Both the position numbers and the translations under genes were made by a program. 64,000 bases of DNA from Thalassospira lucentensis (GTDB taxonomy: Bacteria > Pseudomonadota > Alphaproteobacteria > Rhodospirillales > Thalassospiraceae): NCBI RefSeq assembly GCF_032921865.1, contig NZ_CP136684.1:69501-133500 (forward strand). The letters run 5' to 3'. Positions 35,208-53,074 of this stretch are shown piece after piece. The notes beneath the pieces are model-generated. The model was not told where the DNA came from and searched no databases. It saw only the letters and a list, made by a program, of their open reading frames with translations. How positions within the stretch are numbered: the stretch's first letter is position 1; every line of letters begins with the position of its first letter.

Positions 35208-36254
35208 ATGACCGGACTTTTCAAAACCCTAGCAACCGCAGCCGGTTTGGCTGCCATGGTTGCAACACCGATTCTCGCCAGCGCATCGGAACTGCCAGGC
35301 AATGTCCGCATGGTAATCGGTTCCAAATCGACCGGTGGCGACACCTATCAGAACAGCGCGATCATCGCCGAAGCGCTCTCCAAAAAACTCGATATCAATG
35401 TCAAGGTTGATGCGGTCGGCGCCAGCGAAGCTTTCAAGGCGCTGGAACGTGACAGTCGCGGCACCACGATCATGATTTTCCATGATCAATCCTATCTTGC
35501 GCATCTGTATGGCGTTCGCGGTTACGACGACATCTTTGAAAACTTCAAGGTCGGCCCGACCGTCGCAATCAACCCGGGCAATGCGTATCTCGTTGCTAAA
35601 AATTCGCCGCTGCAATCCATGGAAGACGTGATTGCCGCTGCCGCCGCCGGACAGCGTGTCCGCGTTGCCATTCAGGCCGGTGGTGTTTCGGAAATCGGTT
35701 TCTCGGCACTTAAGAACGCCGTGAAAATCCAGCATCCGGGTGCCGAGGAAAACATCGTTCCGGTCAATACCGGTTCCCAGGCCGATAAAAACCAGCTGCT
35801 GTTTGATGGTCAGGCTGACGTGATCAATGGCTCGGTCCAGGCCAACGAACAGTTCACCCAGCTTCCGGAAGACGACCAGAAAGCCATGCGCTTCATCTGG
35901 CTAACCGCCCGCGAAGAAACCATCGCACAGGCAAACCCGGAAGGCATGGGAGACACGACGCGTGACGAACTTCTTGCATTCACCACCCCGAATGTCAGCG
36001 TCACAATGGACGGCGAAAAGGATTTCACCTTCGACAAGGAATTCTTCCTGCTGTTCAACAAGGACATGGATCCGGAACAGATTGCCACGATCGACAAGGC
36101 TCTGACCGAAATCTTTGCTGCGGGCGAGATTCAGGAAACCCAAAAGGCATCCTTCTTTATCCCGAACTTCAAACCGTCGGCAGAAGCCACGGAATATCTG
36201 AAGGCAAAGCGTGAAGATTACCGTCACATCATCGACGCAATCGCCACGAACTAA
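35208..36254 (+). CDS. Tripartite tricarboxylate transporter substrate-binding protein (TctC family)
   Basis: A 348-residue periplasmic binding protein. Signal peptide covers about residues 1-25 (ATAAGLAAMVATPILASASE region). The Bug/TctC fold is indicated by VRMVIGSKSTGGDTYQNSAIIAEALSKKL, AFKALERDSRGTTIMIFHDQ, NAYLVAKNSPLQSMEDVIAAAAAG, and the GG loop AIQAGGVSEIGFSALK. GGAGGAAACA precedes ATG 35208. Substrates of such systems are carboxylates; given the divergent arabonate-degradation operon and shared LacI-type sites, a sugar acid such as arabonate or xylonate is a reasonable guess, not proved by sequence. Confidence 0.88.
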   Translation: MTGLFKTLATAAGLAAMVATPILASASELPGNVRMVIGSKSTGGDTYQNSAIIAEALSKKLDINVKVDAVGASEAFKALERDSRGTTIMIFHDQSYLAHLYGVRGYDDIFENFKVGPTVAINPGNAYLVAKNSPLQSMEDVIAAAAAGQRVRVAIQAGGVSEIGFSALKNAVKIQHPGAEENIVPVNTGSQADKNQLLFDGQADVINGSVQANEQFTQLPEDDQKAMRFIWLTAREETIAQANPEGMGDTTRDELLAFTTPNVSVTMDGEKDFTFDKEFFLLFNKDMDPEQIATIDKALTEIFAAGEIQETQKASFFIPNFKPSAEATEYLKAKREDYRHIIDAIATN

Positions 36255-40701: not shown

Positions 40702-43581
40702 CTATTCGGCCGCATCAACACGCGGAAGTATCCGGCGCGCCTGTTCGGCCTGCTTGTCATATTCCACCTGCCATTCGGTCGGCCCGTTGCTGGGCGTAAC
40801 CTGAACGGCGGTAACCTTGTATTCCGGGCAGTTGGTTGCCCAGTCGGTATAATCGGTGGTGATCACGTTGGCCTGCGTGCCCGGATGGTGGAAGGTCGTA
40901 TAAACCACACCGGGGGCAACACGGTCCGTGATCGTCGCACGCAGCGACGTTTCACCCGACCGCGATGCCAGACGGATCCAGTCCCCTTCGCGAATGCCCC
41001 GCTGTTCGGCATCATGGGGATGGATTTCAAGCAGGTCTTCCTTATGCCATGCGCTGTTGGCCGTCCGGCGGGTCTGTGCCCCGACATTGTATTGCGAAAG
41101 AATACGCCCCGTCGTCAGCAACAGCGGGAAGCGCGGCCCGGTACGTTCATCGGTTGCGACATATTCGGTCACAACAAACTTGCCCTTGCCGCGTACGAAG
41201 CCGTCAATATGCATGACCGGAGTGCCCAACGGGGCCTTCTCGTTACACGGCCACTGTATAGAACCCTCGCGTTCCAGAAGGTCATAACTGACCCCGGCGA
41301 AGCTTGGTGTGGTGCGTGCGATTTCATCCATCACCTGCGACGGATGGGTATAGTTCCAATCAAGTCCCATCGCACGGGCAAGGTTCTGCGTGACTTCCCA
41401 GTCGGCAAAGCCGTTTTTCGGGCTCATCACCTTGCGCACACGGTTAATGCGGCGTTCGGCGTTGGTAAATGTCCCGTCCTTTTCAAGGAAGGTCGAACCG
41501 GGCAGGAAGACATGCGCATGGTTCGCCGTTTCATTCAGGAACAGGTCATGGACCACAACGCATTCCATCGCGGCAAGACCGGCGGCAACATGTTTGGTAT
41601 CCGGGTCCGACTGCAGGATGTCTTCACCCTGAATATAGATACCCTTGAATGTGCCTTCGACGGCAGCATCAAGCATGTTCGGAATGCGAAGACCCGGTTC
41701 GTCATCCAGTTTGACGCCCCAGATTTTTTCAAACACATCACGCGTCGCATCATCGGCAATATGACGATAGCCCGGCAGTTCGTGCGGGAACGATCCCATA
41801 TCGCACGAACCCTGCACATTATTCTGCCCGCGAAGCGGGTTAACCCCCACGCCCGGACGCCCGATATTGCCCGTCGCCATCGCAAGGTTGGCAATCGCCA
41901 TCACGGTGGTCGACCCCTGGCTGTGCTCGGTCACGCCAAGTCCGTAATAAATAGCGCCATTGCCGCCTCGGGCAAAAATACGCGCTGCCTTCCGAAGGGT
42001 TTCTGCTGGAACACCGGACTGGCGTTCGACTTCTTCCGGGCTGTTTTGCGGATCGGATACAAACGCTGCCCAATCCTGGAACTCGTCCCAATCGCACCGT
42101 TCGCGAATGAACGCCTCGTCAAACAGGCCTTCGGTCACGATCACATGTGCAAGCGATGTCAGAACCGCAACATTGGTGCCCGGACGCAATGCCAGATGAG
42201 CTGCGGCCTTGATATGCGGCGTGCGCACCAGATCAATACGACGCGGGTCGATCACGATCAGCTCCGCCCCCTGACGCAACCGCTTTTTGAGGCGCGATGC
42301 AAAAACAGGGTGCCCGTCCGTCGGGTTGGCCCCGATCAGGATCACGACATCTGTGTGCTCGACACTGTCAAAATCCTGCGTCCCGGCCGATGTCCCGAAT
42401 GTGGTCTTAAGGCCATAACCGGTGGGCGAATGACAGACACGTGCACAGGTATCAACGTTGTTATTGCCAAACCCGGCACGGATCAGCTTCTGCACAAGGA
42501 AGGTTTCCTCGTTCGTGCAGCGCGATGACGTGATCCCGCCAATCGCGGCCTTGCCGTATTTTTCCTGAATGGAACGGAATTTATCGGCGGTGTAACGAAG
42601 GGCTTCTTCCCAACTGACTTCGCGCCACGGATCGGATGTGTTTTCCCGGATCATCGGGTTGAGGATACGGTCCTTGTGGCTGGCATAGCCATAGGCAAAC
42701 CGTCCCTTGACGCATGAATGCCCGCGATTGGCCTTGCCATCCTTGTACGGCACCATGCGCACCAGTTCATCACCACGCATTTCCGCCTTGAACGAACAGC
42801 CAACCCCGCAATAGGCACATGTGGTCACGACCGAATGTTCCGGCTGACCGATTTCGATTACCGATTTTTCCTGAAGCGTCGCCGTCGGGCAGGCCTGAAC
42901 ACAGGCACCGCACGACACGCATTCTGAATCCAGGAAGTTTTCATGCATGCCCGGCGACACCCGGCTTTCAAACCCGCGTCCCTCAATCGTCAGGGCAAAG
43001 GTTCCCTGCACTTCCTCGCACGCCCGCACGCAACGTGAACAGACGATACATTTCGACGGGTCATAGGTGAAATACGGGTTGCTCTCGTCTTTGGCCATGT
43101 AGCGCGGGTTTTCCTCGCCATTCTGGCGGGTCTTGACGTGGTTGCCCCCATCATAACCATAACGGACATCGCGCAAGCCAACCGCACCGGCCATGTCCTG
43201 CAATTCGCAATCGCCATTCGCCGCACAGGTCAGGCAATCCAGCGGGTGATCGGAAATATAAAGTTCCATAACACCTTTGCGGATTTTCTTGAGCCGTTCG
43301 GTCTGGGTATGGACCACCATGCCATCCGCCACCGGGGTCGTGCAGGATGACGGGGTGCCGTTGCGACCTTCGATTTCGACCAGACACAGGCGGCACGAAC
43401 CAAACGCATCGACCATGTCAGTCGCGCACAGTTTCGGTACCTGAATGCCCGCCTCCATCGAGGCCCGCATGATCGACGTGCCTTCGGGCACGGTCACATC
43501 AAATCCGTCAACATTGATCGTCACGGTCTTTTCGGATTTGGCGGCGGGGGTTCCGTAGTCGACTTCTTTTACCAAGGACAT
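40702..43581 (-). CDS. fdsA: NAD-dependent formate dehydrogenase alpha subunit (Mo/Fe-S)
   Basis: A 959-residue catalytic subunit that oxidises formate to CO2 at a bis-MGD molybdenum centre. Domains in order: plant-type [2Fe-2S] ferredoxin (first 90 residues, CATD...CRLC), a NuoG-like His/Cys cluster (HPLDCLTCAANGDCELQ), two [4Fe-4S] clusters (CIVCSRCVRACEE; CVSCGACVQACP), then the molybdopterin oxidoreductase with CAYCGVGC cluster and the active-site segment DTCARVCHSPTG, whose Cys-His pair is coded by TGT-CAT (cysteine, not selenocysteine), and a C-terminal MGD-binding domain. ATG 43581 is preferred; GTG 43590 overlaps the fdsB stop. Cytoplasmic, forming a complex with FdsB and FdsG. Confidence 0.95.
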   Translation of the reverse strand: MSLVKEVDYGTPAAKSEKTVTINVDGFDVTVPEGTSIMRASMEAGIQVPKLCATDMVDAFGSCRLCLVEIEGRNGTPSSCTTPVADGMVVHTQTERLKKIRKGVMELYISDHPLDCLTCAANGDCELQDMAGAVGLRDVRYGYDGGNHVKTRQNGEENPRYMAKDESNPYFTYDPSKCIVCSRCVRACEEVQGTFALTIEGRGFESRVSPGMHENFLDSECVSCGACVQACPTATLQEKSVIEIGQPEHSVVTTCAYCGVGCSFKAEMRGDELVRMVPYKDGKANRGHSCVKGRFAYGYASHKDRILNPMIRENTSDPWREVSWEEALRYTADKFRSIQEKYGKAAIGGITSSRCTNEETFLVQKLIRAGFGNNNVDTCARVCHSPTGYGLKTTFGTSAGTQDFDSVEHTDVVILIGANPTDGHPVFASRLKKRLRQGAELIVIDPRRIDLVRTPHIKAAAHLALRPGTNVAVLTSLAHVIVTEGLFDEAFIRERCDWDEFQDWAAFVSDPQNSPEEVERQSGVPAETLRKAARIFARGGNGAIYYGLGVTEHSQGSTTVMAIANLAMATGNIGRPGVGVNPLRGQNNVQGSCDMGSFPHELPGYRHIADDATRDVFEKIWGVKLDDEPGLRIPNMLDAAVEGTFKGIYIQGEDILQSDPDTKHVAAGLAAMECVVVHDLFLNETANHAHVFLPGSTFLEKDGTFTNAERRINRVRKVMSPKNGFADWEVTQNLARAMGLDWNYTHPSQVMDEIARTTPSFAGVSYDLLEREGSIQWPCNEKAPLGTPVMHIDGFVRGKGKFVVTEYVATDERTGPRFPLLLTTGRILSQYNVGAQTRRTANSAWHKEDLLEIHPHDAEQRGIREGDWIRLASRSGETSLRATITDRVAPGVVYTTFHHPGTQANVITTDYTDWATNCPEYKVTAVQVTPSNGPTEWQVEYDKQAEQARRILPRVDAAE

Positions 43582-43586
43582 CGTTC

Positions 43587-45143
43587 TCACTCCGCGGCTA
43601 TATCAAGCGCATGGGGCTTGAAATCATCAGGGAAATGGGTCAGTGCGCTCATCACCGGATAGGGGGTAAACCCGCCCAGCGCGCATAGCGACCCGAACTT
43701 CATCGTTTCACACAGATCGGTCAGAAGTTCCTTCTGCATTTCGGGATCTTCACCGCGTGCGATCTTGTCGACAACTTCGGTGCCACGTGTTGACCCGATG
43801 CGGCATGGTGTGCATTTGCCACATGATTCAATCGCACAGAATTCCATGGCAAAACGGGCCTGTTTCATCATGTCGACACTGTCGTCAAACACGACGACAC
43901 CGGCATGACCGATCAGACCATCCGCCTTGGCGAATGCCTCGTAATCAAATGGTGTGTCAAATAGTTCGCGCGGGAAATACGCGCCCAGCGGACCACCGAC
44001 CTGAACCGCCTTGACCGGGCGGCCGCTTGCCGTGCCACCGCCGATCTGATCAACGATTTCACCAAGTGTCAGGCCAAACGCCGTTTCATAAAGGCCGCCA
44101 TGTTTGACATTGCCCGCGATCTGGATCGGAATGGTCCCGCGCGACCGGCCCATGCCGAAATCACGGTAATATTCCGCACCCTTTTCAAGGATCACCGGCA
44201 CCGAGCACAACGAGATAACGTTGTTAACAACCGTCGGCCGCCCCATAAAGCCCTCAAGGGCCGGAAGGGGTGGCTTGGCGCGGACAACGCCCCGCTTGCC
44301 TTCCATACTGTTCAAAAGCGAGGTTTCCTCGCCACACACATAGGCACCCGCCCCCATGCGGACTTCCATGTCGAACGCGTAATCCGATCCCAGAACCTTG
44401 GGCCCCAGCAGTTTGTTTGCTCGTGCGACTTCTATCGCTTCGTTCATGATGCGGATCGCATCGGGATATTCTGACCGGGTATAGACATATCCCTTGGTCG
44501 CCCCGGTCGCGAGACCGGCAATGATCATCCCTTCGATCAGGACAAACGGCTCGCCCTCCATGATCATGCGATCAGCAAACGTGCCGCTGTCGCCTTCGTC
44601 GGCGTTACAGACGATGTATTTCTGATCACCGGGCGCCTGACGCACGGTATTCCATTTGATACCCGTCGGGAAACCGGCACCACCGCGACCGCGAAGGCCT
44701 GAATCCGTAACCGCCTTGACGATATCCTCGGACGTCATCCCAAGGGCATTTTCAAGCCCCTTGAGCCCGTCATTGGCACGGTAATCGTCAAGCGACACCG
44801 GATCGATGATCCCGCACCGCTGGAAGGTCAGGCGCGTCTGCGCCTTCAGGAACGGGATATCCTGCGTGTGGCCAAGGAAACGTTTATGATCGCCACCGTT
44901 CAGGAAACCGGCATCAAACAGGCTGTCCACATCCTCGACCGCGACCGGACCATAAGCCAGACGCCCGCGCGATGCTTCGACCTCGACCATCGGCTCCAGC
45001 CAGTACATGCCAAACGAACCGTTACGCACGATCTGGACATCTTCACCGCGTTTGATCGCTTCGGCGGCAATGGCCTTTGCCACGTCATCCGCACCAAGGG
45101 CAACCGAACCGGAATCAAGCGGGATGTAAATCTTGACTGTCAT
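43587..45143 (-). CDS. fdsB: Formate dehydrogenase beta subunit (NADH-reducing, NuoF-like)
   Basis: A 518-residue flavoprotein passing electrons from FdsA to NAD. An N-terminal NuoE-like thioredoxin-type domain (about 1-90, without obvious cluster cysteines) is fused to a NuoF-like part: GLRGRGGAGFPTGIKWN (FMN/NADH site, about 151-167), NADEGDSGTFADR, GAYVCGEETSLLNSMEGKRG and the [4Fe-4S] ligands ESCGKCTPCRIGSTRG (about 438-453). Start overlaps the fdsG stop by 4 nt (ATGA). Confidence 0.95.
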   Translation of the reverse strand: MTVKIYIPLDSGSVALGADDVAKAIAAEAIKRGEDVQIVRNGSFGMYWLEPMVEVEASRGRLAYGPVAVEDVDSLFDAGFLNGGDHKRFLGHTQDIPFLKAQTRLTFQRCGIIDPVSLDDYRANDGLKGLENALGMTSEDIVKAVTDSGLRGRGGAGFPTGIKWNTVRQAPGDQKYIVCNADEGDSGTFADRMIMEGEPFVLIEGMIIAGLATGATKGYVYTRSEYPDAIRIMNEAIEVARANKLLGPKVLGSDYAFDMEVRMGAGAYVCGEETSLLNSMEGKRGVVRAKPPLPALEGFMGRPTVVNNVISLCSVPVILEKGAEYYRDFGMGRSRGTIPIQIAGNVKHGGLYETAFGLTLGEIVDQIGGGTASGRPVKAVQVGGPLGAYFPRELFDTPFDYEAFAKADGLIGHAGVVVFDDSVDMMKQARFAMEFCAIESCGKCTPCRIGSTRGTEVVDKIARGEDPEMQKELLTDLCETMKFGSLCALGGFTPYPVMSALTHFPDDFKPHALDIAAE

Positions 45144-45619
45144 GATCCCACCTCGCTCAGGATGCGATCAAGACGATCCTTGTTTACCCGGCCGACAACC
45201 TTGCCATCAACCATGGCCGCCGGTGCACAGGCACAAAGCCCAAGGCAGAAGACCGGCTCCAGCGTCACATTCTTGTCGCTGGTCGTTTCCGACCAGTCGA
45301 CTTTCAGTTTGCGCCGCGCATGGTCACCGACATCATCGGCCCCCATCGCCTGACAGGCTTCAGCACGGCAGATTTTGATCACATGTTTGCCCGGCTTTTC
45401 TTCCCGGAAGTCATGATAGAAACTGGCAACCCCGTGGACTTCTGCCCGGCTAAGGTTCAGTTTTTTGGCAATGGTCTGAAGCGCGCCTTCGGGAATAAAG
45501 CCGAATTCTTCCTGCACCTCATGCAGGATCGGCAAAAGCGGGCCTTCAAGTCCGGACAGCCCATCACAGATGGTGCCGACGCGGATGGATATTTCCTCGG
45601 TCGTCTCGGTTAAAGACAT
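45140..45619 (-). CDS. fdsG: Formate dehydrogenase gamma subunit (NuoE-like)
   Basis: A 159-residue [2Fe-2S] protein with thioredoxin-like fold. Helical N-terminal part (GPLLPILHEVQEEFGFIPEGALQTIAKKLNLS) then the cluster cysteines in KICRAEACQAMGA (about 86-98) and CLGLCACAPAAMVDGKVVG (about 128-146). ATG 45619 with GAGAGGCTTGC upstream is chosen over GTG 45634. First structural gene of the fds operon; a LysR-type box lies about 100 bp upstream. Confidence 0.94.
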   Translation of the reverse strand: MSLTETTEEISIRVGTICDGLSGLEGPLLPILHEVQEEFGFIPEGALQTIAKKLNLSRAEVHGVASFYHDFREEKPGKHVIKICRAEACQAMGADDVGDHARRKLKVDWSETTSDKNVTLEPVFCLGLCACAPAAMVDGKVVGRVNKDRLDRILSEVGS

Positions 45620-45716
45620 GCAAGCCTCTCTCACTTAGCAGTCTATTGAATTATTTGTTATTCCAGCCAGTGTCGGTGATTGCCGCCGCCGGTTCAATAA
45701 AGGCATCCCGTTACGC

Positions 45717-45742: not shown

Positions 45743-46636
45743 TCAGGCCAGTTCAAGTTCCGAAATCTGTTTGGCCTCTTTCAGCAATGCGGACACAACC
45801 GGTGTCGCCGGCTCGCGCTTCGCCGCAATCATGCCCACAAGATGCGATGCATCGGGATCGACAATCGGGATCGATTTGACCCGATCACGCATGCTGAATT
45901 CCTTGACCATCTTGACCGGCATAATGCTGGCCCAGTTCCCCGTATGAACGTGGGTAAACAGGGCAATCATCGAATCACTTTCAAGTGTCGGGCTGACGCG
46001 CGCGCCTGCCTCGGTCAGGTGCTGATTGATAATCCGCCGGTTCTGCATATCGGGTGTCAGCAAACATAACGGAAACTCTGCCGCCTCCCGCCAAGTGATG
46101 CTTTCGCGGTCCCCGATATCATCGAAATTCGACGTCACAAGGTGATAGCGTTCATAATAAAGCGGGATCGATGTCACCCGGCCAAGCGGTTCATTATCCA
46201 GATAGGTAATGCCGACATCGATTTGAAGGTTATCAAGCAATGCCTGTATTTCAGTCGATGTCCGCGACAATACCGCAAAAGTCACATCCGGATGCTTTTC
46301 GCGAAACGGGGTCGTCAATTCATGCACCATCGAAAGTGCGGTCGGAATAACTGCGATCTGCACCTGTCCGGTCAAACCGAACCGCATGGCGCGCATTTCA
46401 TCGCGCATCGACCGCGAACTGCCGACAATATGGCGCGCCCATTCCAGAACCCGTTCACCTTCGGGCGTTAACCCCTGATACCGTGAGCCGCGCCGCACAA
46501 GCACCACCCCCAAATGATCTTCAAGCTGGCGCAGGGCACTGGAAAGGGTTGGCTGTGTCACGCCGCATTCCTCGGCGGCGTGACCAAAATGCTGCTCGCG
46601 GGCAAGCACCATAAACATTTCGAGTTTGTCGATCAT
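45743..46636 (-). CDS. LysR-family transcriptional regulator of formate dehydrogenase genes
   Basis: A 297-residue regulator: N-terminal winged helix (MIDKLEMFMVLAREQHFGHAAEECGVTQPTLSSALRQLEDHLGVVLVRRG) and a periplasmic-binding-like effector domain (about 90-290; GQVQIAVIPTALSMVHELTTPF, IDVGITYLDNEPLG). ATG 46636 gives the standard LysR N-terminus; the frame is open for 50 more codons upstream without a clear ribosome site. It is directly upstream of fdsG in the same direction, the usual fdsR position. Confidence 0.9.
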   Translation of the reverse strand: MIDKLEMFMVLAREQHFGHAAEECGVTQPTLSSALRQLEDHLGVVLVRRGSRYQGLTPEGERVLEWARHIVGSSRSMRDEMRAMRFGLTGQVQIAVIPTALSMVHELTTPFREKHPDVTFAVLSRTSTEIQALLDNLQIDVGITYLDNEPLGRVTSIPLYYERYHLVTSNFDDIGDRESITWREAAEFPLCLLTPDMQNRRIINQHLTEAGARVSPTLESDSMIALFTHVHTGNWASIMPVKMVKEFSMRDRVKSIPIVDPDASHLVGMIAAKREPATPVVSALLKEAKQISELELA

Positions 46637-46851
46637 GGCGTATCCGGCGCCTTTCGGAGTTACCCCCATATGGTGGCGCACTTTATGTGATTGGTGGACA
46701 CCATTTACGGGGCGGATGTCCTGATCGCAGGATAACCCGAAAGGCCATAAAAACCGAGGGGTTAATCCTGCAACAGGACCGGACATGACATTGATGCACT
46801 TTCATGTCCAGACGGGTCTGGGGACAGACAGACATACCCGAACCCTTTGGC

Positions 46852-46890: not shown

Positions 46891-48633
46891 CTACGCTTCA
46901 GACGTTGCCTCGCGGCCTGACGGTGTCGGCTTTGCAGGCTCGGCCGTGGTTTCCATGTAATGCTTGTCATGGATCGGCTTGACCAGTGCGTTGGCAATCA
47001 GGCCAATCACCAGCAGGGCCGCCATGGCATACATGGTGGTGTTATAAAGGCTCGGCGTCGGATCAACCGTCCCGGCAGGGGCGATTTCCATCAGACGGCC
47101 AATGGTAACGGTTTTGGCAGCAATCAGCTGATCAAGCTGATCCATACCGGCACCGAACTTTGCCTGAAACGCTGCCGGATCAATCTTGGCCGCCAGTTCC
47201 TTGACCGAGTTCCCGACCGAGGTCTGACGCAACTGGGTGATGGCAACCGGCCCCAGCACGCCTGCAACACTCCATGCGGTCAGAAGACGGCCATGGATGC
47301 CACCGACATATTTGGTACCGAAAACATCAGCAAGATAGGCCGGAATGGTCGCAAAACCACCGCCATACATGGTGAAGATGATCATGGTTGCGCCATAGAA
47401 CATCACAAGCCACGTCACGACCGGGTTCACACTGACCTGTCCCGCAGCATACGGGATCGACAGATAAAGGATGATGCCAAGAATGAAGAAGCAGTAATAG
47501 GTGTTCTTCCGCCCGATATAGTCCGAGGTCGATGCCCAGAAGAAGCGGCCGCACATGTTAAAGACCGAAATCATGAAGACATAGGTCGCAGCAAAACCGG
47601 AATTGACAATCAGCGGCAGCGTGCTGCCAAAGATTTCCGTCATCATGGTTTTGGCAACACCAATCACCCCGATACCCGCCGTCACGTTAAAGCACAGAAC
47701 GATCCACAGCATGTAGAATTGCGGGGTTTTAAGTGCCTGATCGATATGGACGTTTTTCTGGGTGATCATCCGCTTGGAGGCTTCTTCGCCCGTTGGCGGT
47801 GTCCAGCCTGCCGGCAGCCAGCCTTCACGCGGGACACGATACGAGAATGCCGCAATGATCATGACAATGAAATAAGCCACACCAAGCGTGATGAAGGTTG
47901 CCGATGCACCAGTATTACCGGTCCCCGCAACATAAACACCTTCCTCGATCGGAACCGGCGCCGATGCCACCTGGGCTGCACCTGCAATCACGACTTCGAC
48001 CATCTGGCCACCGACTTCGGCCATGCGTTTGCCGCCTTCGGTCACCAGGTTAACAGCACTTTCCGGGCCAAGATATTCCGGCACCTTGTAGAAGAATGAA
48101 AGCAAACCTTCCTTGATCGGTGTCGCGATCATCGCCCCGCCGCCAAAGCCCATGATGGCCATACCGGTTGCCATACCGCGCCGGTCCGGGAACCAGCGGA
48201 TCAGCGTTGAAACCGGCGATACATAGCCAAGACCAAGACCGGCCCCGCCAATCACACCGTAACCAAGATAAACCAGCCAAAGCTGATGGCTGGCAATGCC
48301 AAGACCACCAATGATGAAGCCCCCGCCCCAGCAGCAGGCAGCAACAACGCCAACCATACGCGGGCCGACTTCTTCAAGCCACTTGCCACCGAATGCCGCC
48401 GCAAGACCAAGGCAGACAATCGCAACCGAGAAAATCCAGACGACAGATTGCAGCCCCCAATCACCGGAACTTGCGGCAACAACACCGAATTCCTTGACCA
48501 AAGGCGGGTTGAAAATCGACCAGGCATAGACCGAGCCGATGCAAAGATGGATGGCAATGGATGCTGGCGGGACTTTCCAGCGGTTGAAATCGTCCCCTGC
48601 AACGATATGTTCTTTTTTAAGGCGATCAAACAT
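46891..48633 (-). CDS. OFA-family major facilitator transporter (oxalate/formate antiporter type)
   Basis: A 580-residue inner-membrane MFS protein with about 12 helices. N-terminal IHLCIGSVYAWSIFNPPL and GLGLGYVSPVSTLIRWFPDRRGMATGMAIMGFGGGA are hallmarks of the OFA group; the second half begins MLWIVLCFNVTAGIGVIG. Two inserts are unusual: one of about 90 residues between helices 5-6 and 7 (about 185-275, rich in Val/Glu) and one late periplasmic or cytoplasmic loop (about 480-535, KELAAKIDPAAFQAKFG). CGGGAGGAAAAACACAA precedes ATG 48633. Likely substrates are formate, oxalate or other small carboxylates. A sigma-54 promoter and two enhancer-like sites lie upstream, next to a sensor kinase and sigma-54 activator. 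Confidence 0.9.
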   Translation of the reverse strand: MFDRLKKEHIVAGDDFNRWKVPPASIAIHLCIGSVYAWSIFNPPLVKEFGVVAASSGDWGLQSVVWIFSVAIVCLGLAAAFGGKWLEEVGPRMVGVVAACCWGGGFIIGGLGIASHQLWLVYLGYGVIGGAGLGLGYVSPVSTLIRWFPDRRGMATGMAIMGFGGGAMIATPIKEGLLSFFYKVPEYLGPESAVNLVTEGGKRMAEVGGQMVEVVIAGAAQVASAPVPIEEGVYVAGTGNTGASATFITLGVAYFIVMIIAAFSYRVPREGWLPAGWTPPTGEEASKRMITQKNVHIDQALKTPQFYMLWIVLCFNVTAGIGVIGVAKTMMTEIFGSTLPLIVNSGFAATYVFMISVFNMCGRFFWASTSDYIGRKNTYYCFFILGIILYLSIPYAAGQVSVNPVVTWLVMFYGATMIIFTMYGGGFATIPAYLADVFGTKYVGGIHGRLLTAWSVAGVLGPVAITQLRQTSVGNSVKELAAKIDPAAFQAKFGAGMDQLDQLIAAKTVTIGRLMEIAPAGTVDPTPSLYNTTMYAMAALLVIGLIANALVKPIHDKHYMETTAEPAKPTPSGREATSEA

Positions 48634-48737
48634 TTGTGTTTTTCCTCCCGGTATTATGTTCATCCGGTGGCCCCATCCCCCCAATTTCGGATGAATGCTG
48701 CATGGCCATATCGGTAAGACCCGGAAAACACAGCGTC

Positions 48738-48752
48738 GCAATTGCTATGCCA
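48738..48752 (-). promoter_or_regulatory. Sigma-54 (-24/-12) promoter for the OFA transporter
   Basis: Minus strand TGGCATAGCAATTGC (48752-48738) matches TGGCAYR-N4-TTGC with exact GG-N10-GC spacing. Predicted start of transcription is near 48726, leaving a leader of about 90 nt. The activator is probably the sigma-54-dependent regulator at 50.9-52.3 kb. Confidence 0.8.
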
Positions 48753-48818
48753 TTCAGTCTGTTGCCTGATTTTCTGGAAGTTTTGGAAAGACAATCATAA
48801 TATTGCGGCGCACGCGCA

Positions 48819-48876
48819 TGGACAAAATGTCCAACAAATTTTTACCGTGCAATGCACCATCCGGACAAAATGTCCA
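48819..48876 (-). promoter_or_regulatory. Two palindromic enhancer sites for the sigma-54 activator
   Basis: TGGACA-AAA-TGTCCA at 48819-48833 and the same core GGACA-AAA-TGTCC at 48863-48875. Centres are 43 bp apart (about four helical turns) and about 100 and 143 bp upstream of the predicted start site, the right place for upstream activating sequences of an NtrC/DctD-type protein. Confidence 0.75.
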
Positions 48877-48892
48877 ATCCCTGACGGGATAA

Positions 48893-50920
48893 TCAGTCCG
48901 CCTCGGGCAACCAGATGGTGAATAACGTGCCTTTGCCTGGTTCGCTTTCAACCGTCATAGTCCCGCCCTGTCGGTCAATCAGAGTTTTACTGATCGACAA
49001 CCCCAACCCCGTACCTTCACGGCGCTTGGTCGTGTAGAACGGATCGAAAATACGGCCCAGTATTTCGGGCGACATGCCCGTACCCGTATCGCGGATCGAA
49101 ATGCGAATGCCGGGTTTTCCTTTCTGGTCAAAATCCTCGTCAATCAGGGTTAACGTACCACTGTCGGGCATCGCATGCAGCGCATTGACCATCAGATTGA
49201 CCAGCACCTGCTGCAATTCCGTCCGGTTCATCAGGATAAGCCGCGTGGCCAGACTTTCACGTGATACCTCTATATCGGCCTTGTTCAACAAGTGCTGCAC
49301 CAGTGGCAGGCAATCACCAATCACCTCGCCCGGTGAATGGCGCTCGACAAACCCGGCATATTCTTCGGGTTTGGCAAATTGAAGAAGCTTGGTGACAATC
49401 AGATTGATGCGGCTGACCTGTTCATCAATCAAACGGAATTCCGTTTCCGCCAGCCGCACATTTTCACCCAGCAGATCCCGCACCACATCAAGGTTCCCCT
49501 GAAGCACAGCGACCGGATTGTTGATCTCATGCGCGACGCCAGCCGTGATTTCGCCAATTGCCGCCAGTTTTTCGGACATGATCAATTGCTTGGTCGTGGC
49601 TTCAAGCTGGCGGTTGGCTTCGCGAAGTTCGCTGGTACGCGCATCGACACGCGCATTCAGTTCCTCGTTCCAGGCGCGCAAACGTTTGTCACGTTCCTGC
49701 ACCTGATCAAGCAAATCATCAAGATGTTCCGCCACCAGCGATATTTCATCCTGCACCTGATCGATATTGGTCCGAGCGCCAAAGTCGCCGCTTTCTACCC
49801 GGGCAATCGTCTGGGTCATGCGTTCAAGCGGCTTGAAAATGCCGCGCGCCCAACGCAGAAAGATCGGAACGCTCAGCGTCGCGACGAACAGAAACGCCGC
49901 AATGATAATCAGCAGGCTTTCATATTTCGTCTGGGCAAACGGCGCTTCAAGGAACCCGACATACAGCATCCCGACCCGCTTGCCAAAACTGTCGGTAATC
50001 GGCTCATAGGCTGAAATATACCAGTCATTGACGACAAATGCGCTATCGAGCCACACCTTGCCGTCTTCCAGAACATTCTGGCGCACCGCCGCCGATACCC
50101 GTGTGCCAAGCGCGCGCCGCCCTTCAAACAGCCGCACATTGGTGCTGATCCGCACATCGTCGAGAAACAGGGTCGCCGTGCCCTGGCTGCCTTCAGGAAG
50201 ACTGCCTTTGCGGTAAACCAGATCATTGATCGTATCGATAAAGACAAGGTTCTGGTTCAACAATATGCCGCCAACCAGTGCGCCGTCTATCCCCTCTGCG
50301 CCCTCCATCGGCAGGGATACATGGCTTGCCGAATGCACCACCATGCCGCGCGTTTCCGCATCGCGCGTGGTGGGCACCGCGTTGGGTGTCGGCACCAGAT
50401 CAAGCCTTGCACGCGCCGCCAGACCGGGCGAAATCGCCGCCAGATCGGCATTCTCGAATATATCTACCCCGGTCAAGGACGCCCCCGAAAGGGCGGTTGA
50501 AATCACCGGCCAGTCTGCATCAAGCCGCGGGTTGGCCTGCCTCGGTGCCGCCCCTGAAACAAGCCCCTGCCGATTGGCGATATACAGGAAATCAAGGCCA
50601 AGCTCGGCCTGCTTTGTGGCCAACAGATCATCAATCCGCGCCCGATCCCCCGATGCCAGCACATCACGAAACGTCACTGACTGGCCAAGCGCCTCAATCT
50701 GCTCGCCGGTGGTTTCCAGAATATGGGTAAAATATTGATGGGCAATCGTCAGGTCACCATTGACCTTCGATGTCAAAAGCGCGTCAAACTTGCTGTTCCA
50801 GCGCACCATCATCACGCCAAGAAGCAATGGCAAAATGACCAGTGTCGGCAATAACGCAATCGCCAGCAGTTTGAATCGCACGGACCGGGTGCGTTTGGTA
50901 CGGCGGCTCCGCCACGGCAT
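48893..50920 (-). CDS. DctB-like sensor histidine kinase
   Basis: A 675-residue membrane kinase. First helix about 20-42, a large periplasmic Cache-type sensor (about 43-325, with an IANRQGLVSGAAPRQANP strand typical of the family), second helix about 330-352, HAMP (LERMTQTIARVESGDFGART), a coiled-coil linker (about 420-470), phosphoacceptor GEITAGVAHEINNPVAVLQGN and ATPase (VNLMVNALHAM N-box; RDTGTGMSP; GTGLGLSISKTLI). ATG 50920 overlaps the response-regulator stop (TGATG), indicating translational coupling; 4 extra upstream codons are possible. Sensed compound is likely the substrate of the adjacent OFA transporter. Confidence 0.92.
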   Translation of the reverse strand: MPWRSRRTKRTRSVRFKLLAIALLPTLVILPLLLGVMMVRWNSKFDALLTSKVNGDLTIAHQYFTHILETTGEQIEALGQSVTFRDVLASGDRARIDDLLATKQAELGLDFLYIANRQGLVSGAAPRQANPRLDADWPVISTALSGASLTGVDIFENADLAAISPGLAARARLDLVPTPNAVPTTRDAETRGMVVHSASHVSLPMEGAEGIDGALVGGILLNQNLVFIDTINDLVYRKGSLPEGSQGTATLFLDDVRISTNVRLFEGRRALGTRVSAAVRQNVLEDGKVWLDSAFVVNDWYISAYEPITDSFGKRVGMLYVGFLEAPFAQTKYESLLIIIAAFLFVATLSVPIFLRWARGIFKPLERMTQTIARVESGDFGARTNIDQVQDEISLVAEHLDDLLDQVQERDKRLRAWNEELNARVDARTSELREANRQLEATTKQLIMSEKLAAIGEITAGVAHEINNPVAVLQGNLDVVRDLLGENVRLAETEFRLIDEQVSRINLIVTKLLQFAKPEEYAGFVERHSPGEVIGDCLPLVQHLLNKADIEVSRESLATRLILMNRTELQQVLVNLMVNALHAMPDSGTLTLIDEDFDQKGKPGIRISIRDTGTGMSPEILGRIFDPFYTTKRREGTGLGLSISKTLIDRQGGTMTVESEPGKGTLFTIWLPEAD

Positions 50921-52347
50921 CAATCGGCCCAATCGGCAAATTTGCGGTCAATCGTCTTGCGCGAAATGCCCAGACGCCGCGCGGCTTCATTGCGATTGCC
51001 GCCGGTCTTGTGCACCATCGCCATGATGTGACGCCGTTCCATTTCCTCCAGCGTCTCGTCCTGATCGGTATGGCCATCCATCCCAGCCTGCTCGTCGCGG
51101 AATTCTGCCGGGAACCGCCCAAGGATCAGGGTGCGTTCCACAAGGTTGCGCAATTCGCGCACATTGCCAGGCCAGTCATATCGCGTCAATCCGGCACGCA
51201 CCGCCCCATCCATCGCGACTTGCGGCACCCCAAGCTGCTTGGACAGCTTGCTCATAAAGAGGCTGGCGAGTTCAAGCACGTCATCCCCGCGCTCGCGCAG
51301 GGGCGGCATCGCGATATGCATGACATTGATCCGGTAAAACAGATCGGCACGGAAACGGCCCGCTTCGACCTCTGCCTCAAGATCGGCATTGGTGGCAAAA
51401 ACAAACCGCAGATCGACCGGTGCCTCGCGCTCCGATCCCACGGGGCGGATACGGCGGCTTTCAATCGCGCGCAAAAGCTTGCTTTGCGTCGCCAGCGACA
51501 ATTCCCCGACCTCGTCGAGAAACAGGGTACCACCCTGCGCATGCATGAAAAGCCCGTCGCGCGTGGTTTGCGCCCCGGTGAAGGCCCCTTTCAGGTGCCC
51601 GAACAATTCGGCCTCTATCATCTCGGACGGAATGGCGGCACAATTGATCGGCACGAACGGCTTTTCGGCCCGGTCAGATAACGCATGTAATGACCGAGCG
51701 GTAACCTCCTTGCCCGTGCCGCTTTCGCCAGAAATCAGGATTGATGTCGGAAGGGGGGCCACCCGTGCAATGGTTTCGCGGATTTCCTGGATTTGCGCAG
51801 AATAGCCAATCAGCTTGTCGCGCAACAGAACGTGATCGGATGTTGCGCGCAATTCATGGCGCAAAACATGGTTTTCACGCCGCAACCGCATCCGGTCAAG
51901 GCAGCGCGCCACCGCATTCAAAATCTGGTTGGATCGAAACGGTTTAAGGACAAAATCAACCGCACCAGCCCGCAATGCCTTGATCGCGGTATCCAGATCG
52001 GCATAGGCAGTCATCAGGATGGCATCGGAAAAAAAGCCGATCTCGCGCTGCTCGGTCAACCACTCAACCCCGGACTTGCCCGGCATGATGTTATCAAGGA
52101 TCACGACGTCGAAATGATGCTGATCCAGAAGCTTGGTCGCTTCTTCGCAATCGGCGGCTTCTTCCACCCGCTTGGCGCGCGGCCCCAATGTACGGACAAG
52201 GAAATTGCGCATGCCCGGTTCGTCATCGACGATCAGGATCGATGCCTTTTCCAGCCACGGCCCGAATTCCGGCCCCGGCTTGCCATCCGGTTGCGATGCA
52301 GGTGATGGTGCAACCAGATCCGGCGCCCCCATTGCAATCGATCTCAT
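50920..52347 (-). CDS. Sigma-54-dependent response regulator (DctD/NtrC type)
   Basis: A 475-residue activator: receiver (about 35-150; ILIVDDEPGM, phospho-Asp in VVILDNIMPGKSG, TAYADLDTAIKALRAGAVDFVLKPF), AAA+ domain (about 175-410) with Walker A GESGTGKE, the sigma-54-contacting GAFTGA loop, Walker B GTLFLDEVGEL and WPGNVRELRNLVERT, and a Fis-type helix-turn-helix at the C-terminus (NRNEAARRLGISRKTIDRKF). GGCGGAGGAATATCA precedes ATG 52347. It is the most likely binder of the GGACA-AAA-TGTCC sites before the OFA gene. Confidence 0.94.
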   Translation of the reverse strand: MRSIAMGAPDLVAPSPASQPDGKPGPEFGPWLEKASILIVDDEPGMRNFLVRTLGPRAKRVEEAADCEEATKLLDQHHFDVVILDNIMPGKSGVEWLTEQREIGFFSDAILMTAYADLDTAIKALRAGAVDFVLKPFRSNQILNAVARCLDRMRLRRENHVLRHELRATSDHVLLRDKLIGYSAQIQEIRETIARVAPLPTSILISGESGTGKEVTARSLHALSDRAEKPFVPINCAAIPSEMIEAELFGHLKGAFTGAQTTRDGLFMHAQGGTLFLDEVGELSLATQSKLLRAIESRRIRPVGSEREAPVDLRFVFATNADLEAEVEAGRFRADLFYRINVMHIAMPPLRERGDDVLELASLFMSKLSKQLGVPQVAMDGAVRAGLTRYDWPGNVRELRNLVERTLILGRFPAEFRDEQAGMDGHTDQDETLEEMERRHIMAMVHKTGGNRNEAARRLGISRKTIDRKFADWAD

Positions 52348-53074
52348 TGATATTCCTCCGCCAATCATCCCGGTCATTTTGTTTTTATTTTTTCGAAGAT
52401 TAGATCAGCAGAAGATGAAAAGCAAAATATGTGATTGCGGCAAATATCCCTGCTCATACGCTCGGTTGTAATCGACGGCCTATCAAAGTTGAAGGCTCTG
52501 CTCTCAGGACGTGGAGCATCCGTAGTCAATTTCCGTAACGGATTTTGTTCTCCGACAAACGGTTTTACATGGCGGAGCATCGCGGCATGCCAGAGAACCA
52601 TACTGCAGGGCTTGATAACCCCATACCTGAACGGAATCGCTCACAAAAAACGGCTTAAAACGTGGCAGTTAACTTCGTGTCCGGCTCAGGACGAGCATAG
52701 TGGATGCGTCTTTTCTTAGTCGGCCCGATCATTTTCCGCAGCTTTGCTGAAACAATCATCCCGATGAGAACAAAGGAAAGATCCCCCCAAGTTCCGGAAC
52801 ATGCGTTTCTCTTTAGCCTTTCACATGTCGCAGTTGTGAATCCTACTCATAAAATCTCTCGAAATAATTCCTTTGTATAGGTACAATTCAATAATCGACC
52901 TGCTATAGACAGAAATCCAAATCGAATTGGAACGCAATTCCGCAGAAACAAGCGGAAATTCAACAATTAGAATCAAAGAGATCGACTGGTTGGGGTCACT
53001 ATACAGGCGGTAGCAAGCGGGTTATAAACCGCGTAGCTGCGTCATGGACAAGACCTAATTTGGGGGCGACCAGA
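52348..53074. other. Intergenic region of about 0.7 kb without recognised gene
   Basis: Lower in G+C than the genes to the left. A 94-codon frame (52435-52719, plus) has no recognisable domain, a poor ribosome site and many rare residues, so it is not called. A perfect inverted repeat GAATTG-GAACG-CAATTC lies at 52924-52940 and may be an operator for the polysaccharide genes; no convincing promoter was picked. Confidence 0.4.

Follow-up and report, generated by a model that had tools for sequence, protein, structure and literature searches.

Uptake of C4-dicarboxylates in rhizobia is controlled by the DctB/DctD pair, which acts with sigma-54 on dctA, and in Escherichia coli the two-component pair YpdA/YpdB, associated with pyruvate, governs the OFA-type transporter YhjX through a LytTR-type regulator and no sigma-54. 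The locus described here lies in a stretch of 64,000 nucleotides from Thalassospira lucentensis, called the window below. It has a double-Cache kinase sensor, as DctB/DctD does, and an OFA-type transporter as the predicted target of a two-component pair, as in the YpdA/YpdB-YhjX system. In contrast to DctB/DctD, whose target is a DctA-type C4-dicarboxylate transporter, the adjacent target is an MFS protein, the operator word is another one, the sensor contains an sCache_3_3-type module with a formate triad, and the locus is linked to formate dehydrogenase. The first-pass annotation had called the pair DctB/DctD-like, which holds for its architecture and sensor fold but not as a family assignment. 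AtoS and AtoC were the top-scoring named models for the kinase and the regulator, yet both fell far under cut-off (189.6 versus 646 and 387.2 versus 714), and the target of AtoC differs from the transporter target proposed here.

The kinase sensor also has a Cache-type module in common with PacF, McpF, Atu0526 and the structure 8py0. PacF, McpF and Atu0526 are chemotaxis receptors, whereas here the module is carried by a histidine kinase and is membrane-proximal in a two-module domain. Arg/Thr/Thr is reported for PacF and the Arg also for McpF and Atu0526 (PMC12501870). The transporter can be aligned over both halves with two MFS proteins of solved structure, OxlT (8hpj/8hpk) and the L-lactate transporter SfMCT (6g9x); it keeps the substrate arginine of OxlT and lacks its Lys355.

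Architecture of the locus

The features of the locus are as follows, in window coordinates:
50920-52377, - strand: NtrC-type response regulator with a receiver, a sigma-54 AAA+ domain with GAFTGA and a Fis-type HTH; predicted dyad binder
48893-50932, - strand: sensor histidine kinase with a periplasmic Cache domain ending in sCache_3_3, followed by HAMP, HisKA and HATPase; R261/T264/T277 triad
48863-48875, no strand: promoter-distal dyad GGACAAAATGTCC (GGACA-AAA-TGTCC), centre 48869; predicted enhancer
48820-48832, no strand: promoter-proximal dyad GGACAAAATGTCC (GGACA-AAA-TGTCC), centre 48826; predicted enhancer
48793-48805, + strand: IHF-like site AATCATAATATTG between enhancers and promoter, one mismatch to WATCAANNNNTTR
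48737-48752, - strand: putative sigma-54 (-24/-12) promoter TGGCATAGCAATTGCG, GG-N10-GC spacing, one mismatch to TGGCAYRNNNNTTGCW
46891-48633, - strand: MFS carboxylate transporter (OFA/SfMCT-like), 580 aa; predicted regulated gene
45743-46786, - strand: LysR regulator, which by its position we take to be FdsR-like
45140-45634, - strand: formate dehydrogenase gamma subunit, 234 bits (cut-off 198)
43587-45143, - strand: formate dehydrogenase beta subunit, named by position; 416 bits to NuoF, under that model's cut-off of 559
40702-43590, - strand: formate dehydrogenase alpha subunit, 963 bits (cut-off 666)

Read along the - strand, the order is regulator (52377-50920), kinase (50932-48893), promoter region, transporter (48633-46891), LysR gene and the three formate dehydrogenase genes. 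The regulator matched Response_reg, Sigma54_activat (226 bits) and HTH_8, with GAFTGA at residue 264, and rpoN is present in the genome. Compared over the regulator, locus L001, which is named T. lucentensis, showed 99-100% identity. The sigma-54 site claimed by the first-pass annotation, with exact GG-N10-GC spacing, was found as described, reading from 48752 to 48737. Its transcript start is predicted near 48726, 12 bp beyond the promoter GC, and counted from there the dyad centres fall at about -100 and about -143, in agreement with the positions first proposed. The two dyads are indeed identical, and their centres are 43 bp apart, about four helical turns. The transporter likely starts at the ATG at 48633, which has GGGAGGA before it, and not at the TTG at 48741 that opens the longest ORF. 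IHF-like sites were scored against WATCAANNNNTTR, which we take to be the IHF consensus; a word with at most one mismatch occurred between dyads and promoter in 29 of the 64 related loci described below versus 1.4 expected from base shuffles, these loci being related and not independent.

Within the window, matches to the sigma-54 word by itself number 34 at up to two mismatches, which is unremarkable against the 42 expected, whereas the dyads exceed chance, with six matches at up to one mismatch versus 1.77 expected and one of 100 shuffles reaching six. Exact single dyads number seven in the whole genome, versus four with a reversed-pattern control, and the exact pair occurs once. All five of the other single exact dyads examined had no GG-N10-GC site with fewer than two mismatches inside 1.5 kb. 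Besides the two of the pair, the window contains one more exact GGACA-N3-TGTCC (35649-35661), which is single, lies within a 348-aa ORF and has no sigma-54 site with fewer than three mismatches inside 1.5 kb; it was taken as chance.

Conservation and specificity of the putative promoter, and rearrangements around it

Searching with the regulator gave 74 loci, and the counts below refer to the 64 that carry the transporter. Left out were L003, whose transporter lies beyond the fetched stretch and which was handled separately, the truncated locus L064, and L066-L072 and L074, which lack the transporter and whose regulators are only distantly related (35-41% identical). All 64 loci with kinase, regulator and transporter had, upstream of the transporter, a dyad pair and a sigma-54 site with no more than one mismatch; many of these loci come from Bradyrhizobium or Thalassospira and are related, so that the counts are not independent events. 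The sigma-54 site had no mismatch in 43 loci and one in 21, with the -12 C changed in three; the same search matched 7 of 1280 base-shuffled upstream regions. As for the dyads, 45 pairs were perfect, 13 included one or two single-mismatch dyads, and six (L033 and L056-L060) were degenerate, with one to three mismatches in each dyad. Hence 58/64 loci had at most one mismatch per dyad, a pattern seen in 0/1280 base shuffles of the upstream regions. The first-pass annotation had named, as grounds for dropping its reading, loss of the palindromes in close relatives retaining the full set of three genes; they were kept throughout, albeit in degenerate form in those six, and the check thus favoured its reading.

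Conservation extends to the single positions and the geometry. Across the 128 dyads, C4 and G10 were invariant, and G2, A3, T9, T11 and C12 varied in one to three. Dyad spacing was 19-24 bp in 46 loci and 42-43 bp in 17, or about two or four helical turns, and 33 bp in one (L060), where the minimum-mismatch pair is doubtful and an alternative 21 bp pair has one and three mismatches. The proximal dyad centre lay 58-61 bp from the sigma-54 site in 41 loci, 74 bp in 16, 80-88 bp in five and 104-108 bp in two. We regard conservation, judged from sequence, as the decisive evidence for the observation. A chance resemblance within the window would fit the sigma-54 word, which by itself is no commoner than expected, but because the promoter is conserved in 64/64 loci this explanation is already refuted, and the absence of the dyad pair from all shuffles leaves it a vanishingly small probability. 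Taken together, the dyads and the sigma-54 site very probably constitute the enhancer-promoter of the adjacent NtrC-type activator.

In the 968,959 bp of the 64 loci, 101 of 104 exact dyads lay no more than 450 bp upstream of the transporter, and no further pair with at most one mismatch per dyad was found. That the regulator gene is autoregulated by a pair of its own was therefore rejected, since no pair occurs elsewhere in these loci; the exception is L017, whose transporter and regulator genes diverge from the pair, so that it could act on either gene. The class was sampled with 289 genomes, including the studied genome and one other of its genus; three contained an exact pair, one pair in each, and five the kinase sensor (E 1e-20), and all three belonged to the five (hypergeometric 2.5e-6). 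The two sensor genomes without an exact pair had no transporter gene within the 15 kb taken. The search for exact pairs in 50 of the 65 loci genomes, the 15 left out including all six with degenerate dyads, gave 44 pairs. Thirty-eight were at the transporter promoter, at most once per genome (37 at promoters of counted loci and one at that of the L003 genome), and six were a coding repeat; the 12 genomes in which no exact pair turned up at the transporter are the ones with mismatched dyads in the locus comparison. These results give no support to the new regulon that had been proposed, and a wider regulon of exact pairs was rejected on the counts from both genome sets. As far as exact pairs show, the activator would have a single target promoter. 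The coding repeat belongs to a small protein of Bradyrhizobium (L126, L128 and L129, around 1501) in which the unit DTMSKDGMMKK recurs and is encoded by codons that resemble the dyad pair; three of the six pairs were translated.

Natural rearrangements separate the promoter from its neighbours. In L003 (T. alkalitolerans), 9,650 bp of other genes on the same contig lie between the kinase end and the dyads, which adjoin the transporter at the usual distances, 43 bp from each other and, for the proximal centre, 74 bp from the sigma-54 site; behind the transporter come the LysR and formate dehydrogenase genes. In L017, the transporter is divergent and located beyond the regulator, where it keeps a dyad pair with one mismatch in each dyad and a spacing of 42 bp. 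That the dyads might be something else, such as a terminator for the kinase, a repeat of mobile origin or the site of an unrelated regulator, is suggested by their position 17 bp beyond the kinase stop codon and by a terminator-like call on the + strand that overlaps one of them. However, the dyads travel with the transporter in L003 and L017, as fits a transporter enhancer and not a kinase terminator, and they remain with it in L004 despite intervening ORFs. The kinase terminator was rejected, as the stretch at the kinase end of L003 contains no exact dyad and the kinase gene runs on the strand opposite to the terminator call; we consider any such alternative role very improbable. By comparison of loci, the predicted promoter architecture is thus shown to be conserved and to stay with the transporter through rearrangements.

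Several further observations concern these loci. The L003 insert between kinase and transporter promoter includes ABC-transporter genes (L003:10563-15175), and a substrate-binding gene before the L010 regulator is similar to one in it, from which we conclude that the region has been rearranged. L017 is a metagenome-assembled genome labelled Stappia with the 42 bp Thalassospira-type spacing, a transporter 84% identical and a kinase only 68% identical, and either transfer or misbinning is possible. ORFs between kinase and transporter occur in L014 as well as L004; in some Thalassospira there is a small opposite-strand ORF at this place (L014:10530-10991), which in L014 gave weak matches, far under cut-off, to FosA/FosB-type and dioxygenase families.

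The candidate signal and cargo

The first-pass annotation had suggested a small carboxylate, perhaps formate or oxalate, as the signal. The sensor, the gene neighborhood and the transporter support a small carboxylate and point to formate over oxalate. In the kinase, the sensor region scored 101.6 bits to sCache_3_3 (cut-off 28.8) and 60.6 to Cache_3-Cache_2 (cut-off 27.7), the latter over only part of the profile (100-185 of 299). An Arg/Thr/Thr triad at positions 240, 243 and 256 of alignment A1, which comprises 40 of the available kinases, corresponds to kinase residues 261, 264 and 277 and was invariant in 40/40, as were many other residues of the sensor. Compared by residue spacing, this triad (Arg, +3 Thr, +16 Thr) matches R142/T145/T158 of PacF, changes of which are reported to affect formate binding (PMC12501870). 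Searched against solved structures at E <= 1, the sensor profile had two matches only, both weak, 8py1 (E 0.004) and 8py0 (E 0.015), and the printed alignments of both, as we read them, keep the triad; the title of 8py0 describes a formate complex. A gut study assigns formate to one sCache_3_3 domain with reported formate-binding residues (PMC12415202).

Some observations on the sensor count against formate. In a two-module sensor model, which has a mean pLDDT of 81 and is weak at residues 277-283, the triad lies in the membrane-proximal half, whereas the formate site of PacF is reported to be in the distal module (PMC12501870). For Atu0526, it is reported that formate binding remained in R115A and the response was abolished (PMC8698456). 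Since the best matches of the whole-sensor fold are DctB and LuxQ, the model makes it possible that another carboxylate is bound in the distal module. The same genome encodes a methyl-accepting chemotaxis protein (L150:1183-2949, C2 near 1758103) that combines sCache_3_3 with this Arg/Thr/Thr triad and is probably a chemoreceptor for formate.

Formate dehydrogenase subunit genes were present in 53/64 loci, in several arrangements and as two enzyme types, a recurrent linkage of the locus to this enzyme. They are behind the transporter in Thalassospira and Pseudohoeflea and before the regulator in Rhizobium and Ciceribacter, and in Bradyrhizobium a divergent type is found behind the transporter, the alpha subunit of which scored 721 and 729 bits in the two genomes checked (cut-off 666). 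The other 11 loci had no formate dehydrogenase gene inside the stretch covered; in one of them, L033, FdhD is at the edge, and by coordinates the alpha subunit appears just beyond. At L144:1933-11320, a kinase/regulator pair (64-68% identical) immediately precedes LysR and formate dehydrogenase genes; the transporter is missing, and neither a dyad nor a sigma-54 site was found at up to one mismatch. L144 and L145 alike keep the kinase pair and have no dyads nearby.

The transporter marginally passed the SfMCT L-lactate model NF049980 (320.7 versus a cut-off of 320), and two homologues tested, from Bradyrhizobium and Rhizobium, were just under it (319.3 and 304.5). It remained far under the oxalate:formate cut-offs (175 versus 374.85 for TIGR00890 and 118.8 versus 335 for TIGR04259). 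In OxlT, R272 and K355 are reported to be both essential for oxalate transport and both conserved in the family (PMC10070484). The R272 equivalent is kept in 65/65 transporter sequences, and the K355 equivalent is Trp in 64/65, by which the transporter departs from the family as described there (PMC10070484). The genome contains no oxc or frc over cut-off, only sub-cut-off paralogues, and no FocA-type channel. The same circuit could have oxalate as its signal and an oxalate:formate exchanger as its transporter, as the family name suggests and as a formate dehydrogenase that might oxidise oxalate-derived formate would allow. However, the replaced lysine and the lack of an oxalyl-CoA decarboxylase or formyl-CoA transferase over cut-off disfavour oxalate, and we hold this version to be highly doubtful; an oxalate pathway was rejected for the same genome. 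Given the Trp at K355, the missing oxc and frc and the missing channel, formate import is the simplest reading of the sequence, and lactate-like monocarboxylates would also be possible cargo.

Such a monocarboxylate (lactate, pyruvate or glycolate) could be both signal and cargo of an otherwise identical circuit, with formate dehydrogenase a neighbor for another reason. This agrees with SfMCT being the best model for the transporter, with the match of the sensor fold to DctB, KinD (pyruvate) and other carboxylate Cache domains, and with the 11 loci in which formate dehydrogenase is not seen. On the other hand, formate dehydrogenase is repeatedly linked to the locus in dissimilar arrangements and as two types of enzyme, and the triad of formate-binding domains is invariant, making another monocarboxylate possible but rather unlikely. 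Formate is the best candidate because of the formate dehydrogenase genes in 53/64 loci, the Arg/Thr/Thr triad of the sensor and a transporter without the oxalate lysine, and on this ground we think it is probably the signal.

A proposed dedicated local circuit

We consider it quite likely that the locus encodes a dedicated local circuit leading from a formate-sensing kinase through the activator and the dyads with their sigma-54 site to the transporter. The membrane kinase (48893-50932) would sense an extracellular small carboxylate, most likely formate, via its Cache domain and would phosphorylate the NtrC-type activator (50920-52377), which we infer to be the dyad binder. Activator dimers would bind the two GGACA-N3-TGTCC dyads on the same helix face and assemble there, and the DNA between dyads and promoter would be bent, probably by IHF. 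The AAA+ domain of the activator would then open the sigma-54 polymerase complex at 48737-48752, switching on the transporter (46891-48633), which presumably works inward and would bring formate to the adjoining NAD-linked formate dehydrogenase.

The type of circuit is already known, and the operator word and the formate assignment look new. In the literature covered, with most subscription papers outside it, we found no description of this circuit, or of formate sensing or import in these Alphaproteobacteria. In its broadest form, to which we give roughly even chances, the proposal is a new formate-sensing two-component system in Alphaproteobacteria, with an operator word of its own (paired GGACA-N3-TGTCC sites separated by two or four helical turns) and, replacing FocA channels, an MFS transporter repurposed for the regulated import of formate, which would form a self-contained module that has been rearranged with formate dehydrogenase and fitted to two transporter branches. 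For a kinase/regulator pair without a prior name, the analysis proposes the operator word, the promoter it acts on and a specific ligand. If the proposal is true, the module would be a ready formate biosensor, with sensor, promoter and enhancers defined.
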